From: Pseudomonas mendocina
Lineage (GTDB): Bacteria > Pseudomonadota > Gammaproteobacteria > Pseudomonadales > Pseudomonadaceae
NCBI RefSeq assembly: GCF_900636545.1
Contig: NZ_LR134290.1
Location: 4,526,001-4,590,000 of the forward strand
Length of the DNA: 64,000 nt
Reading direction: 5' to 3'
A program made the position numbers and the translations under genes. This document shows, piece by piece, positions 3 through 4,992 of the stretch (its first letter is position 1; the number at the start of each line of letters is the position of its first letter). The notes beneath the pieces were generated by a model. That model ran no database searches. It was not told where the DNA came from and saw only the letters and a program-made list of their open reading frames with translations.

Positions 3-1376
3 CTGGCCGAGGAAATGGAGGAGAAAGACCCGCACTATGCCGCCGTGCTGGGCACGCGCAAGCGGGCCGTCTCCGGGCTGCCAGTCGTTGTCGAGGCCGC
101 GAGCGAGGACGAACACGACGAGCAACTGGCAGAAGCTGTGCGCGAGCTGGTCGAGGCGCCCGAGTTCAGCGACATGCTCGATGACCTGCTCGATGCCATT
201 GGCAAAGGTTTCTCTGTCGCCGAGCCTATCTGGCAACTGATCGGCGACCAGTTCTGGCCAACCCGCTATGAGCACCGCGACCCGCGCTGGTTCCAGTTCG
301 ACAAGGTCACTGGCCAACGCCTGCAGTTGCGCAGCGAAGGCGGCGATGGTCTGGAGATTCCGCCCGGCAAGTTGATCGTCCACAAGCCGCGCTTGAAGTC
401 AGGCCTGCCGATCCGCGGCGGTGTCGCGCGCCTGGTGGCCGTGTCGTTCATGTGCAAGGCGTTCGGCCTCAAGGACTGGATGCGCTATGCCGAGCTGTAC
501 GGTATGCCGCTGCGCATTGGCCGCTATGGGCCGGGTGCCAAGTCGGACGATATCGCCGTCCTGCGCCGTGCCGTGGCCCAGCTCGCGGCAGATGCCGCAG
601 CCGTAATGCCGGAAGGCATGAAGATCGAGTTTGTAGAGATCGCCAACGCTGCAGGCGGCGCCGAGCTGTTCGAGCGCATGGCCGAGTGGCTCGACAAGCA
701 GATCAGCAAGGGCGTGCTGGGGCAGACGATGACCACCGATGACGGGTCGAGCCAGAGCCAGGCCAACGTGCACAACGAAGTGCGTATGGACATTCTGCGC
801 GCCGATGCCAAACAGCTCGCGGCGACGCTCAACCGCGACCTGGTGCAAACCTTCATCGACCTGAACTATGGCCCGCAGGATCGTTACCCGCGCATCGTCC
901 TGCAGGTGACTGAAGCTGAGGACTTGAAGGCGCTGGCCGATGCCCTCGGGCCGTTCATTGACCGAGGGCTGCCGGTAGAAGCCTCGGCGATCCTGGACAA
1001 GTTCGGCCTGTCCGCGCCCCAGTCCGGCGCCCAGGTGCTGCGCCCGCAGCATTCCATGCAGCCGCTGGCCCTGAACCATCAGCAGCAATCGTGCGCCTGC
1101 TCGGCATGCGGCGAGCGCAAGGCATTGAACGCCGAGCAACCGAAGCGCGACGAGCTGGACGAGCTGGTGGCCGACGAGCTGGGCGACTGGGTTCCGGTGA
1201 TGAAGCCCGTGCTCGATCCGGTGCAGCAGCTGGCGCAGCGGGTTGGAACCTTCGACGAGTTCCGCGCCGGCCTGGCCGGCCTGCTCGAGGAAATGGACGA
1301 CAGCGCCCTGATCGAGCGCCTGGCCCTGGCCGCGTTCAAGGCCCGCGCCACTGGCGACGTGAGCGACCAGCTATGA
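3..1376 (+). CDS. Mu gp29-like portal protein (DUF935), 5' end cut by window
   Basis: The portal is the dodecameric head vertex through which phage DNA is packaged. The frame is open to the left edge, so the N-terminus is missing and the first ATG (15) is internal. The visible part, about 457 residues, has the DUF935 core with a 'PEGMKIEF' segment and the 'TTDDGSSQSQANVHNEV' signature near residues 240-256. The C-terminal tail carries an ALNAEQ hexapeptide at nt 1122-1139 that recurs in the protease/scaffold. The stop overlaps the ATG of the next gene (ATGA), implying translational coupling. Family assignment is secure; length against the roughly 500-residue family supports a modest truncation. 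Confidence 0.9.
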   Translation: MAEEMEEKDPHYAAVLGTRKRAVSGLPVVVEAASEDEHDEQLAEAVRELVEAPEFSDMLDDLLDAIGKGFSVAEPIWQLIGDQFWPTRYEHRDPRWFQFDKVTGQRLQLRSEGGDGLEIPPGKLIVHKPRLKSGLPIRGGVARLVAVSFMCKAFGLKDWMRYAELYGMPLRIGRYGPGAKSDDIAVLRRAVAQLAADAAAVMPEGMKIEFVEIANAAGGAELFERMAEWLDKQISKGVLGQTMTTDDGSSQSQANVHNEVRMDILRADAKQLAATLNRDLVQTFIDLNYGPQDRYPRIVLQVTEAEDLKALADALGPFIDRGLPVEASAILDKFGLSAPQSGAQVLRPQHSMQPLALNHQQQSCACSACGERKALNAEQPKRDELDELVADELGDWVPVMKPVLDPVQQLAQRVGTFDEFRAGLAGLLEEMDDSALIERLALAAFKARATGDVSDQL

Positions 1377-2164
1377 CCGGGCCGACACGTGAGCCGCTGC
1401 CCGTCCCTGTGCCAAAGGAAGCGCTCGACTACCTGCGCGCCAAGGGCTACCGGGTGGGCTTCGATCACCGCGACGTGTTCCAGGAAGAGCACGCTACGGC
1501 CTGGACGGTGGCCAAGGCCATGCGCCTGGACATCCTTGAGGCGATCCGCGCGGCGGTCGACGAGGCGATCACGGGCGGCCAGGCCTTCGCAGAGTTCAAG
1601 CGGGATCTGCAGCCGCTCCTGGAGAAGCTCGGTTGGTGGGGCCGTGGCGAGCTGCTCGACCCGCTGACCGGAGAGACGCGCGAGGTGCAGCTGGGCAGCC
1701 CGCGCCGCCTGCGAACAATCTATGACGTGAACCTGCGCCAGGCCCATGCGGCCGGCCAGTGGGAGCGCATCGAGCGCACATCGAAGACGCATCCGTATCT
1801 GCTCTATGAGCTGGGGCCGAGCCGAGAGCATCGGCCAGAGCACGTGGCGTGGGCCGGCATCCTGCTGCCCGCCGATGACCCGTGGTGGCAGACGCACTTC
1901 CCGCCCAATGGCTGGGGCTGCAAATGCCGGGTTCGCCAGGTCAGCCGCCGAGAGGCCGAGCGCCTGCAGGCATCAGGGCGCTATATCACGGCCGCGCCCG
2001 ACCTGGCCCCGCAGGAGTACGTCAACCGCCGCACCGGGCAGGTCGTCAGCGTGCCGCGAGGCATAGAGCCGGGCTGGGCCTATAACGCCGGGCAGGTGTC
2101 CAGGCTGGCCAGGGCGCAGCAGCTCCTGGACGAGAAAGAGGCCGCAATACCGGCCGAAAGCTGA
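1373..2164 (+). CDS. Mu gpF-like minor head protein (gp30)
   Basis: Minor capsid protein of the Mu F / SPP1 gp7 family, thought to act at the portal vertex during head assembly. The start was chosen at ATG 1373, overlapping the portal stop; a longer in-frame ORF upstream lies inside the portal gene. The protein is 263 residues. The signature lies near its middle: an 'RTIYDVNLRQAHAAGQ' helix, then 'HVAWAGILLP', then 'HFPPNGWGCKCRV', the Cys-x-Cys motif typical of this family. It is followed by roughly 290 bases without a phage structural gene and then the com-mom cargo. In Mu the next genes would be G and I, so the order is altered here. Confidence 0.9.
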   Translation: MTGPTREPLPVPVPKEALDYLRAKGYRVGFDHRDVFQEEHATAWTVAKAMRLDILEAIRAAVDEAITGGQAFAEFKRDLQPLLEKLGWWGRGELLDPLTGETREVQLGSPRRLRTIYDVNLRQAHAAGQWERIERTSKTHPYLLYELGPSREHRPEHVAWAGILLPADDPWWQTHFPPNGWGCKCRVRQVSRREAERLQASGRYITAAPDLAPQEYVNRRTGQVVSVPRGIEPGWAYNAGQVSRLARAQQLLDEKEAAIPAES

Positions 2165-2413: not shown

Positions 2414-2450
2414 CGGGCGGAAGCCTACCAGCTTATTAAGGGCATTGCAG

Positions 2451-2672
2451 TTGATAGACATACGTTGCGGCGGCTGTGGCCGACTACTCGGCAAGGCCGT
2501 CAGTTTTACCCTGTTGCAGATCAAGTGCCCGCGTTGCCGGGTAATGAATCAGATAGCCACGAGCTGCCCGAATCCAGAGCGCCCCCGAGCGCCTCGATCC
2601 GTTGAGGCAGCTCATGGCAAAGAAAGCCCACCACCCGGCAGCACCGGGACAATTCACCCCACCTACCACTGA
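2451..2672 (+). CDS. com: Com-like zinc-finger translational activator of mom
   Basis: Com of phage Mu is a small zinc-binding protein that opens an RNA hairpin over the mom start so that mom can be translated. This 73-residue product starts at TTG 2451, chosen because AAGGG (2438-2442) lies 8 bases upstream and because the reading then aligns with Mu Com from its first residue: IRC-x2-C with LL-KA-SF following, then a second C-x2-C in 'IKCPRC'. The four cysteines form the zinc site. The gene runs 59 bases past the mom start in another frame, as com and mom overlap in Mu. Similarity to Mu Com was judged from memory of its sequence. Confidence 0.8.
   Translation: MIDIRCGGCGRLLGKAVSFTLLQIKCPRCRVMNQIATSCPNPERPRAPRSVEAAHGKESPPPGSTGTIHPTYH
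2587..2613 (+). promoter_or_regulatory. mom translation-inhibitory hairpin masking the Shine-Dalgarno
   Basis: GAGC-GCCTC (2587-2595) pairs with GAGGC-(A)-GCTC (2604-2613): nine base pairs with one bulged A and an 8-base loop. The 3' arm contains the only good ribosome site of mom (GAGG, 2604-2607) and abuts the ATG at 2614. In Mu an equivalent hairpin blocks mom translation until Com binds. The structure was read by eye; no energy was calculated. Confidence 0.65.
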
Positions 2673-3387
2673 CCAGGTGGGATACCTGAACGGGAGCGAA
2701 GCCCTGGCCGGCTTCGGCTCCCGTAGCTTCTACGTGGCGCAGCTCCCACGCGCCGAGGCCAACCAGATGATCATCGCCAACCACTACTCCGGCCGCATCG
2801 TGAACAACTCATACATTCACCTGGGTGTATGGATTGGCGGCGTACTGCGCGGCGCGTTGCAATTCGGCTATGCCCTGAACCCGGTGGCAGGCGCGCAGAA
2901 GTTCGTAGCCGGCACCCAGGTTGATCAGTACCTGGAGCTAAACCGCATGTGGCTGGACGACGTGGCGCCGCGCAATAGCGAGAGCCGCGCCCTGTCGTAT
3001 GCCTTCAAGTTCATCAAACGGGCCTGCCCGCGTGTGGCCTGGGTGCAGAGCTTTGCGGACGAGCGTTGCGGGGGCTGGGGCGTGGTCTACCAGGCAGCGA
3101 ACTTCCTTTACCTGGGCCACCATCGCACCAGCTTCTATGAGCTGGATGGGCAGGCGTACCACCCAATGCTACTGACCGCCCACAAGAAGGCCGGTAAGCG
3201 CGGCGAGTTCCTGCGGGCCAACAAGCATCGGGCGATCAAACGGAGCCTGTTGCAGTTCCGCTATATCTACCTGATCAAGCCGAGCTGGCGGGCCAGGTTC
3301 AAAAAGGCGCCGCTGCCGTTTCCTAAGCCTGGGCAGGTATTGCCAGATCGTCGACGCTTGAAGTCAGCGCTAGCTAAGCAGGCCTAA
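2614..3387 (+). CDS. mom: Mom-like DNA adenine modification protein
   Basis: Mom of Mu converts adenines in phage DNA to N6-carbamoylmethyl-adenine, protecting it from many host restriction enzymes; the fold is GNAT-like (known for the family). This 257-residue protein has the family's conserved stretches: 'IANHYSGR' near residue 55, 'LGVWIGG' and 'GALQFGYAL' in the first half, 'ELNRMWLDD' and 'NSESRALSYAFK' in the middle, and 'SFADERCGGWGVVYQAANFLYLG' split across residues about 145-170. ATG 2614 was chosen over TTG 2602 because GAGG lies 6 bases upstream. It overlaps com and is convergent with the next gene by 18 bases. In Mu the pair is at the far right end of the genome; here it is inside the head module. 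Confidence 0.88.
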   Translation: MAKKAHHPAAPGQFTPPTTDQVGYLNGSEALAGFGSRSFYVAQLPRAEANQMIIANHYSGRIVNNSYIHLGVWIGGVLRGALQFGYALNPVAGAQKFVAGTQVDQYLELNRMWLDDVAPRNSESRALSYAFKFIKRACPRVAWVQSFADERCGGWGVVYQAANFLYLGHHRTSFYELDGQAYHPMLLTAHKKAGKRGEFLRANKHRAIKRSLLQFRYIYLIKPSWRARFKKAPLPFPKPGQVLPDRRRLKSALAKQA

Positions 3388-3885
3388 AGCAGCTGGTATT
3401 CCCGCACCTACAATCGCAGCAACTAGGGGGTGAGCAAGAAACGCATTGAGCAGGTTCTTTGCTTCCTCCCTTTCCTCACGAGAGGCGCCAGAGTCATCAA
3501 TACGCTGGAGAATTTCTCCCAGAACCAGCTGGAGATTCTGAACATTGTGATCGCCGATCTGGATGCCTTGAGAGTTATGTATCGCAATGTGGTTGGTTGT
3601 AGTTTTGACTGGAGGGTTTGCCTGAATAGCTGTGTCTTTATGGAGCTTAAGAGTGAAGTGCGCAGGAATGCTGGATAAGCCACTGCTGTAATTCGATTGA
3701 ACTACGGTGAAACGTTCCTCTCTACCATTCGGCAGCTTATGCAAGACCTTATCACCCTCGCTAACATCCAAGGTCTTGTCATAAATGGTAATTCCATTAG
3801 CGCTGAACTTGGTCTTGTAGGGGCCGTGTCGCTCCCCAGTTTCTGCGCTCTCAATGAAGACTTCGTCTGTATGGAATCGGAACAT
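3370..3885 (-). CDS. Prophage cargo protein with RHIM-like amyloid motif
   Basis: A reverse-strand gene among forward-strand phage genes, clearly richer in A+T than its neighbours, with its own ribosome site (AAGGAG 9-10 bases before ATG). The 171-residue product has three parts. Residues 1-85 are a beta-rich domain with 'GPYK' and 'LPNGREE' patches. Residues 100-116 contain NSQGIQIGDHN, whose I-Q-I-G core and flanking N-S-x-G and x-x-N closely match the RHIM of human RIPK1 as I recall it. Residues 118-147 are a charged helix, followed by a hydrophobic C-terminal segment (149-170) that could enter membrane. RHIM motifs assemble into functional amyloid in cell-death signalling. A role in phage defence or abortive infection is inference only. 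Confidence 0.75.
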   Translation of the reverse strand: MFRFHTDEVFIESAETGERHGPYKTKFSANGITIYDKTLDVSEGDKVLHKLPNGREERFTVVQSNYSSGLSSIPAHFTLKLHKDTAIQANPPVKTTTNHIAIHNSQGIQIGDHNVQNLQLVLGEILQRIDDSGASREEREEAKNLLNAFLAHPLVAAIVGAGIPAALGLLS

Positions 3886-3916
3886 TCGACCACTCTCCTT
3901 GGTTTGTCTGCATCAA

Positions 3917-3945
3917 AGCGTAAGCAACCGTCTGAGAATCAGCAA
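3917..3945 (-). promoter_or_regulatory. Sigma-70 promoter of the RHIM-motif cargo gene
   Basis: On the reverse strand TTGCTG (3945-3940) and TACGCT (3922-3917) are separated by exactly 17 bases. The predicted start of transcription falls about 25 bases before the ATG at 3885. An independent promoter fits a gene expressed from the lysogen rather than with the late phage genes. Confidence 0.4.
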
Positions 3946-3978
3946 CTACTGACACCCGTCCCCTAATCCCGCCCCCCT

Positions 3979-4002
3979 CATGCCGCCGACCATGGCGGCA
4001 TG
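3979..4002 (+). promoter_or_regulatory. Hairpin containing the protease start codon
   Basis: CATGCCGCC (3979-3987) is perfectly complementary to GGCGGCATG (3994-4002) around a 6-base loop. The ATG that starts the protease gene (4000-4002) is the last three bases of the 3' arm, and no clear Shine-Dalgarno precedes it. It may hold back initiation or mark a terminator for readthrough from upstream. Confidence 0.45.
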
Positions 4003-4992
4003 AACACACAAAACGCCCCGCACAACCGCACCACCTCCACAGCACTCTGTTTCGAGCTGAGCGCCGACGTGCCCGAGTGGGTCGAGGTGCTGCCGCCCGG
4101 CCCGACAGTGACCGGCCGCGATGGCCGCACCTGGTCGTATGACCCGGCCCAGGTGCTGGCCGCCACCAAGGCGCACACCGCAGGCGCTGACCTGCCGTTC
4201 GATTACGTACACGCCACCGAGCTGAAAGCGCCCCAGGGCGACGACGCACCGGCCAGCGGCTGGGCGCGTGAATACCGCATCAACGAGCGCGGCGCCATCG
4301 AGGCCCGCGTGGAGTGGACGGCCAAGGCCCGCAACGCCATCGCTGAGCGCGAGTACCGCTACATATCGCCGGTATTCACCTACGACGACGACGGTCGCAT
4401 TCACCGCTTTAGCAGCTTCGGCCTGGTCAACAAGCCGAACTTGCTGACCAAGGCGCTCAACGCTGAACAACCCACCACGGAGAACATCCCGATGCTCGCA
4501 GCAGCCATCCGGGCAGCCCTCGGCTTGCCTGAAACCGCGACGGAAGACGAGGCCGTCGCCGCCATCAAGGCGCTGAAGGAGGCCAAGGAAACGGCCCTCA
4601 ACAGCGAGAAAGCACCCTCCCTGCAGTTGTACGTGCCGCGCGGCGACTACAACGCCCTGGAGCAGCGCGCCCTCAACGCCGAGCAGAAGCTCAAGCAGCG
4701 TGAAGAAGACGAGCTGAAAACCGCCATCAACACCGAAATCGACGCGGCCCTCAAGGCCGGGAAGATCACGCCAGCCACCAAGGGCTACCACCTGGCGGCC
4801 TGTCAGGAGGAAGGCGGCCTGGAACGCTTCCGCGAGTTCGTCAAAGCGGCGCCCTCGGTGACGGCTACGGTCGTGCCCGAAGGCCGGGTGGACGAGCAGA
4901 ACAAAACCGCGCTCAACGCCGAGCAACAGCAGGCCGCGCGGTCGTTCGGCATGACCGATGACCAGTACATCAAGCACATCGAGGGGCAATAA
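4000..4992 (+). CDS. Mu I-like prohead protease with C-terminal scaffold
   Basis: Mu protein I is the head maturation protease whose C-terminal part also serves as scaffold. The 330-residue product shows the Mu-I N-terminal core ('WVEVLPPGP', 'GRTWSYDP', 'LPFDYVHATELK', 'ASGWAREY', 'YRYISPVF') through about residue 150, followed by a charged, helical scaffold. The hexapeptide ALNAEQ occurs at residues 152, 224 and 304, with a variant ALNSEK at 199; the first copy lies just where the protease and scaffold join. The start ATG 4000 is the only start codon after the upstream in-frame stop at 3964, though it sits in a hairpin. The gene is followed after 2 bases by the major head gene. Confidence 0.9.
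   Translation: MNTQNAPHNRTTSTALCFELSADVPEWVEVLPPGPTVTGRDGRTWSYDPAQVLAATKAHTAGADLPFDYVHATELKAPQGDDAPASGWAREYRINERGAIEARVEWTAKARNAIAEREYRYISPVFTYDDDGRIHRFSSFGLVNKPNLLTKALNAEQPTTENIPMLAAAIRAALGLPETATEDEAVAAIKALKEAKETALNSEKAPSLQLYVPRGDYNALEQRALNAEQKLKQREEDELKTAINTEIDAALKAGKITPATKGYHLAACQEEGGLERFREFVKAAPSVTATVVPEGRVDEQNKTALNAEQQQAARSFGMTDDQYIKHIEGQ
4492..4992 (+). CDS. Internal in-frame scaffold start (Mu Z-like)
   Basis: In Mu the scaffold protein Z is made from an internal start within gene I. Here ATG 4492 follows GGAG (4479-4482) by 9 bases and lies just past the protease domain, giving a 166-residue alpha-helical scaffold beginning MLAAAIRAALG. It shares the reading frame and stop of the protease gene. 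The existence of a separate scaffold product is inferred from the family and the ribosome site. Confidence 0.55.
   Translation: MLAAAIRAALGLPETATEDEAVAAIKALKEAKETALNSEKAPSLQLYVPRGDYNALEQRALNAEQKLKQREEDELKTAINTEIDAALKAGKITPATKGYHLAACQEEGGLERFREFVKAAPSVTATVVPEGRVDEQNKTALNAEQQQAARSFGMTDDQYIKHIEGQ

Follow-up and report, generated by a model that had tools for sequence, protein, structure and literature searches.

A Mu-like prophage of Pseudomonas mendocina carries a RHIM protein that is probably an immune switch

Why would a prophage carry, inside its head gene cluster, the polymerisation motif of animal cell death? The question is raised by a 64,000-nucleotide stretch of the Pseudomonas mendocina genome (contig NZ_LR134290.1, positions 4,526,001 to 4,590,000; hereafter the window), where a Mu-like prophage holds an antisense gene for a 171-residue protein with a RIP homotypic interaction motif (RHIM). 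We conclude that the prophage carries, in this RHIM protein, a probable immune switch, because its most conserved stretch is the animal motif and because several of its relatives lie beside known or suspected anti-phage genes. More narrowly, we propose a single-component, self-assembling immune-signalling or abortive-infection protein carried as a moron, a reading to which we give slightly under an even chance.

On sequence grounds, the motif is real and conserved. The Pfam RHIM model PF12721 matches the protein with 23.3 bits (E 4.4e-5, residues 98-115), above its gathering score of 20; a Pfam scan yielded only this match and a sub-threshold one to T4_RIIA1. The earlier note on this DNA, which had likened NSQGIQIGDHN at residues 104-114 to the RHIM of RIPK1, is thereby borne out. 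The RHIM core consensus is I/V-Q-I/V/L/C-G-x-x-N, and IQIGDHN of the window protein fits it. Three PDB sequences came back from a search at E<=10: two are RIPK1 chains, at E 1.1 and 1.3, and the best-scoring one, at E 0.4, is a hydrolase that is unrelated. The RIPK1 chains align over residues 101-117, with 10 of 17 residues identical by count from the alignment. At such E values the pairwise resemblance is not significant by itself, whereas the profile match is. The core expression [IV]Q[IVLC]GxxN arises in 207 of 200,000 shuffles of the protein, and a broader RHIM expression has a single hit when the entire window is translated in six frames.

Conservation was assessed on alignment A1, which holds 73 relatives from 82 homologues of the first search, nine near-duplicates, fragments or short copies having been dropped. 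Q109, G111 and N114 are invariant in all 73, as the note's check on homologues had looked for, and so is G160 of the tail. By relative entropy, Q109, N114 and H113 are the three most informative of the 171 columns, and the two best 8-residue stretches begin at 109 and 107: the motif core is the most conserved part of the protein. PF12721 matches 70 of the 73 members at E<=10, and in a second alignment (A2, 24 sequences of a Burkholderia-type subset) the motif hardly varies either. The pattern [IVF]Q[IV]GxxN is present in 94/94 collected proteins, a collection by shared 5-residue words that under-samples motif-less relatives. Since NCBI already calls relatives 'RIP homotypic interaction motif-containing protein', the presence of the motif is in itself no discovery.

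Could a non-amyloid structural turn or coiled-coil cap score as a RHIM by chance, the small prophage protein having no part in defence? The Pfam model has 22 positions and the pairwise PDB E values lie around 1, which would suit such an account. We find it very unlikely, since it is exactly the core Q, G and N that are invariant in the 73 sequences, and since the module has moved between different N-termini.

AlphaFold2, run on A1, predicts a confident β domain at residues 1-88 and helices at 112-130, 136-151, 153-159 and 162-170; the predicted local distance difference test score falls below 50 at 94-101 and 103-107, inside the RHIM segment. An independent model from A2 repeats this anatomy, with low confidence at 95-115. 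The sensor domain, motif and tail of the earlier note thus reappear in both models as a predicted folded N-domain, a probably disordered RHIM segment and a helical hydrophobic end. The tail's best 17-residue Kyte-Doolittle mean is 2.28, and its last 18 residues are devoid of D, E, K, R and H. Among relatives (n=89), the median of the best 17-residue mean is 1.96 for the tail versus 0.65 for the rest of the protein, and the tail mean is at least 1.6 in a fraction 0.865 of them.

The fold predicted for the N-domain, in both of these independent models, is that of a phage stopper. It is thus conceivable that the protein is a virion-assembly saboteur: the N-domain would block the head-tail joints of competing phages, and the RHIM and tail would only aggregate the product. 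Prophage defence by blocked virion assembly has a precedent, as excerpts of PMC10884400 describe. We hold this highly improbable. No profile similarity to lambda FII or to ENT39118 Hc1 was detected (hhalign probabilities 2.4% and 0.2%, both template families being shallow), and the account leaves unexplained why the RHIM is the most conserved part and why chromosomal copies stand beside SIR2-Argonaute or kinase genes.

Domain swapping is usual in conflict systems, and this family displays it. The A1 profile matched 23 of 398 genomes of the host genus, at 24 places: seven full proteins with N-domain, RHIM and tail (that of the window included), one RHIM behind another N-terminus (L030), one in which a different N-terminus precedes a degenerate core with T in place of Q (L034), two with N-domain, an NARVNxNSxDNSxN-type motif and a tail (L031, L037), and 13 stand-alone N-domains. 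On a conjugative plasmid (L089:4995-6095, +), the N-domain is joined to a CAP12/Pycsar TIR domain (PF10137, E 1.3e-35). A conjugative IncF-type plasmid (L087:4671-5213, +) encodes an N-terminus that reads as winged-helix-like, the RHIM motif GSAQVGDGNTQN and the same C-terminal tail. A Verrucomicrobia contig (L014) sets a further N-terminus before the same RHIM and tail, at 19.8 bits, just under the cut-off.

Plasmid records number five for P0001, 39 for P0051 (mainly the N-domain) and three for the L074 protein, and phage records of relatives amount to one phage under two accessions. In phage ENT39118 the relative stands by itself in antisense, flanked by lysis-side genes and Q, a moron-type placement. 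Class and phylum sampling gave matches in 3/369 and 5/398 genomes, which marks the family as rare beyond a few lineages. With PF12721 alone, the cut-off is exceeded in only 5/398 genus genomes, one match (L066) looking like a chance frame, and carriers recognised by the A1 profile are missed.

Some side observations concern the parts of this family. In the host genus, stand-alone N-domain copies of about 90 residues (L056-L062, centres near 8.2-8.5 kb) lie, by eye and in the seven loci read, beside nadC (four) or a phage-type amidase (three). In L031, L037, L075, L077, L086, L088 and L090, the RHIM is replaced by the recurrent NARVNxNSxDNSxN-type motif with a different helical tail; it is possibly a second self-assembly motif. 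The L089 fusion gene adjoins a gene annotated DUF4238, and such a gene also stands beside the RHIM gene in L007.

Following the homologues to their neighbours, as the note had advised, we found that some adjoin anti-phage genes. In L079, SIR2-APAZ and short Argonaute genes are followed by the RHIM gene; a second genome of that genus (L254:4450-8100, +) shows an identical arrangement, the RHIM match being spread over two frames and the neighbours identified by eye, and the RHIM match occurs in only 2/91 genomes of the genus. In L006, the RHIM gene is preceded by PDC-M71B and by a PDC-M71A protein kinase whose HxDxxxxN and DFG motifs look intact, the kinase coming first. Elsewhere the RHIM gene comes first and is followed by a PDC-S59 ATPase (L052), by PDC-S32 with AbiJ_NTD4 (L046) or, in a prophage, by PDC-S67 (L017). 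Another prophage (L019:10543-12454, -) has a RHIM gene and, about 2 kb away, Pycsar cyclase/PycTM, all within about 4 kb. Finally, in L053 (G163: L031/L053), an N-domain protein with the other motif is followed by an unknown open reading frame (ORF) and then Drt4.

The amyloid signalling pairs of bacteria would call for a second RHIM. The host genome is complete (one contig, 5.19 Mb); a PF12721 search of it gave one place over the cut-off and two others below, at 12.9 and 11.6 bits. The A3 profile, which misses some divergent carriers, found only the window protein in the same genome. In 30 loci it yielded, besides RHIM proteins, only two chance-level ORFs (E 0.067 and 0.39). This local search missed the known divergent carriers L021, L052 and L054, so the absence is not strict. 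Within that limit we rejected a RHIM receptor-effector pair, and the result in the host genome favours homotypic action.

The neighbouring genes would also suit an oligomerising adaptor, whose RHIM assembly clusters a separate host or neighbour effector (NADase, kinase or ATPase) and whose tail only anchors it. Same-strand spacings to the effector genes are short, about 101 nucleotides in L006, 37 in L079, 34 in L052, 186 in L046 and 23 in L017, and the differing partners suggest a generic add-on. We consider this account rather unlikely: the window gene stands alone, and no partner with a second RHIM was found in the neighbourhoods searched, by the same incomplete search. A phage decoy, in which the prophage copy would poison RHIM-type immune assemblies, whether these belong to the host or to rival elements, appears improbable. 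Herpesvirus decoy RHIMs do block RHIM assemblies, according to excerpts of PMC7375649; the gene sits in a phage beside the anti-restriction pair com-mom, and a short motif could cap a foreign polymer. However, prophage and chromosomal copies have the whole architecture in common, N-domain and tail included, and no other RHIM to block was found in the host genome.

How strongly do the neighbourhoods speak for an immune switch? For 21 loci, with L021 left out of both sets, a PADLOC control covered 81/165 ORFs within 3.5 kb of the RHIM gene and 81/129 ORFs at a distance of 5-10 kb. At E<=1e-15, 8/81 near genes and 1/81 far genes matched (Fisher one-sided 0.017), the eight near members being assigned from single-locus scans; the pooled table names no members. 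Counted by loci, the contrast is 6/21 versus 1/21 (0.047). It is post hoc and small, and thus supportive, not strong. Several points weigh against the proposal. The near and far sets were hand-picked, and the near hits, except for the PADLOC match of the Pycsar cyclase, were already known; if the unscanned near genes are negative, the contrast becomes 8/165 versus 1/129 (one-sided 0.042). No defence neighbour is present in 15/21 loci, and the window protein itself matches 0 families of PADLOC-DB 2.0.0 at E<=0.01. By the profile search, 15/24 places in the host genus are N-domain relatives that have no RHIM, and the core Q is T in L034 and L054. In the papers found, fibres, toxicity or protection are shown experimentally for no member.

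The location of the gene speaks for cargo. It lies in a Mu-like head cluster of the order portal, F-like protein, com, mom, RHIM gene (antisense), protease and major head protein (Table 1), and its 3' end overlaps that of mom by 18 nucleotides, the two genes being convergent, tail-to-tail. Its GC content of 48.6%, against 59-70% in the surrounding region, its reverse orientation and its com-mom neighbours are as the earlier note had them. The antisense orientation implies separate transcription; the promoter that the note had assigned to the gene was not recovered, with 0 sigma-70-like sites within 3300-4100 and an equally empty terminator scan.

Table 1 Features of the RHIM protein gene and its surroundings in the window.
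Feature	Position	Strand	Remarks and basis
RHIM protein gene	3370..3885	(-)	171 residues, 48.6% GC; ORF list and translation
N-terminal β domain, residues 1-88, predicted phage-stopper-like fold	3622..3885	(-)	structure model
RHIM motif, residues 98-115	3541..3594	(-)	PF12721; same place from whole-genome search
RHIM core NSQGIQIGDHN, residues 104-114	3544-3576	(-)	read from translation
Predicted helices, residues 112-130 and 136-151	3433..3552	(-)	structure model
Hydrophobic C-terminal tail, residues 153-171, with family-invariant G160	3373..3429	(-)	A1 alignment, model, hydropathy
Shine-Dalgarno-like AAGGAGAG	3893..3900	(-)	7 nucleotides ahead of RHIM gene ATG; read from sequence
mom, DNA-modification (anti-restriction) gene	2629..3387	(+)	Pfam PF25680 E 2.2e-75; phrog_1384
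com, translational activator of mom	2445..2672	(+)	Pfam PF10122 E 2.5e-13; phrog_6417
Mu F-like minor head protein	1376..2164	(+)	phrog_220 E 2e-85
Head maturation protease/scaffold, other flank of the slot	4000..4992	(+)	phrog_328 E 6.9e-83

Among 80 Mom-bearing loci of viral contigs, four retain a recognisable neighbour of the window's cluster. One, with a Mom 97% identical (L256), holds a different antisense gene in the slot between mom and the protease (243 residues, 3737-4468, -), another (L257) a 72-residue sense ORF, and two (L258, L259) an antisense RHIM gene 61-64% identical. Such differing contents make the slot variable, which agrees with the cargo slot envisaged in the note. Deviating GC, opposite strand and variable slot, the marks of a moron, are all found in the window gene. 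Among the fetched loci of relatives that were read, mom adjoins the RHIM gene only in the window and L004/L005; most relatives are not beside mom. The idea of a signalling or cell-death factor thus retains a genuine motif, a predicted three-part anatomy, defence neighbours of some relatives and a variable slot; for a promoter of its own, the scan gave no support.

Two further remarks concern the slot. The 243-residue protein of L256 has, by eye, a hydrophobic N-terminal segment and is another candidate cargo. A virion structural gene of the Mu-like phage was also considered for the window gene, and was ruled out by its antisense orientation and patchy occurrence.

For the self-assembling immune protein we propose the following course. 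At rest, the protein would have a folded N-terminal input domain and a helical C-terminal region, joined by an unfolded RHIM segment. When an infection cue acts on the N-domain, several copies may cluster, and their RHIM segments would form a homotypic cross-β polymer, as in RIPK1/RIPK3. The polymer would concentrate the C-terminal helices, and the hydrophobic tail would attack or anchor in the inner membrane, stopping the cell; alternatively, where a neighbouring gene encodes a linked effector, the helices may recruit that. In either case, the lysogen population would be protected from a second phage. A bolder version, a bacterial fuse of the necroptosis kind set off by a captured phage part, is a long shot: the stopper-derived N-domain would dock on, or co-ring with, the hexameric neck of the infecting phage, templating a RHIM amyloid nucleus that drives the tails into the membrane, and the whole would be an exchangeable sensor-fuse-effector kit of prophages and chromosomal defence loci. 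Such a kit is suggested by the joining of this input domain to a TIR effector as well, and of the RHIM/tail output to other input domains.

Animal necroptosis has RHIM amyloid signalling at its core, and the bacterial literature that we searched describes Bell/NLR pairs. If our reading is true, a compact and apparently partner-free RHIM protein that has an input domain and a membrane-type tail of its own, travels with prophages and is found next to SIR2-Argonaute, Pycsar and candidate defence systems would be a minimal testable model of how amyloid signalling works in antiviral death. Should the stopper-like fold prove functional, the immune sensor would be built from the enemy's own structural part. 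No paper on prophage RHIM proteins or this architecture was found in the literature searched, which left subscription journals and preprints mostly outside, and the word RHIM is absent from the main text of PMC7159879, PMC8195603, PMC12799240 and PMC13092281.

With the RHIM of RIPK1/RIPK3 (PF12721; PDB 8ib0, 9m6m), the window protein shares the core G-I-Q-I-G-x-H-N within the 17-residue alignment above, and its segment is, in the model, likewise disordered as a monomer. It differs in having no kinase or death domain in the same chain and in its hydrophobic tail C-terminal to the motif. The bacterial BASS motifs reportedly go back to Dyrka et al. 2020. RHIM-like amyloid signalling in bacteria is already published, as excerpts of four papers describe (PMC8086366, PMC12261475, PMC12881547, PMC12133306); the first three bear on BASS3, the RHIM-like motif of Bell/NLR gene pairs, which is described as C-terminal in a Bell effector and N-terminal in the NLR encoded beside it. 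Common to both is a RHIM-like motif in bacteria with an expected link to cell death. In contrast to BASS3, the window motif is internal and followed by two helices and the hydrophobic tail, and searches of its genome yielded neither a second motif nor an NLR partner. The predicted N-domain fold is like that of stopper proteins (phiXacJX1, Chi, Pam3, SPP1 gp16 and the lambda neck), at an identity of about 9-16%; a stopper or head-closure gene would be expected on the sense strand of the head operon, and the window gene is antisense to it. The window protein falls outside known moron families (PHROGs 16834 and 5789 have no assigned function), but with prophage morons for superinfection exclusion or abortive infection it has in common the antisense orientation, the low GC and the variable slot between late genes.
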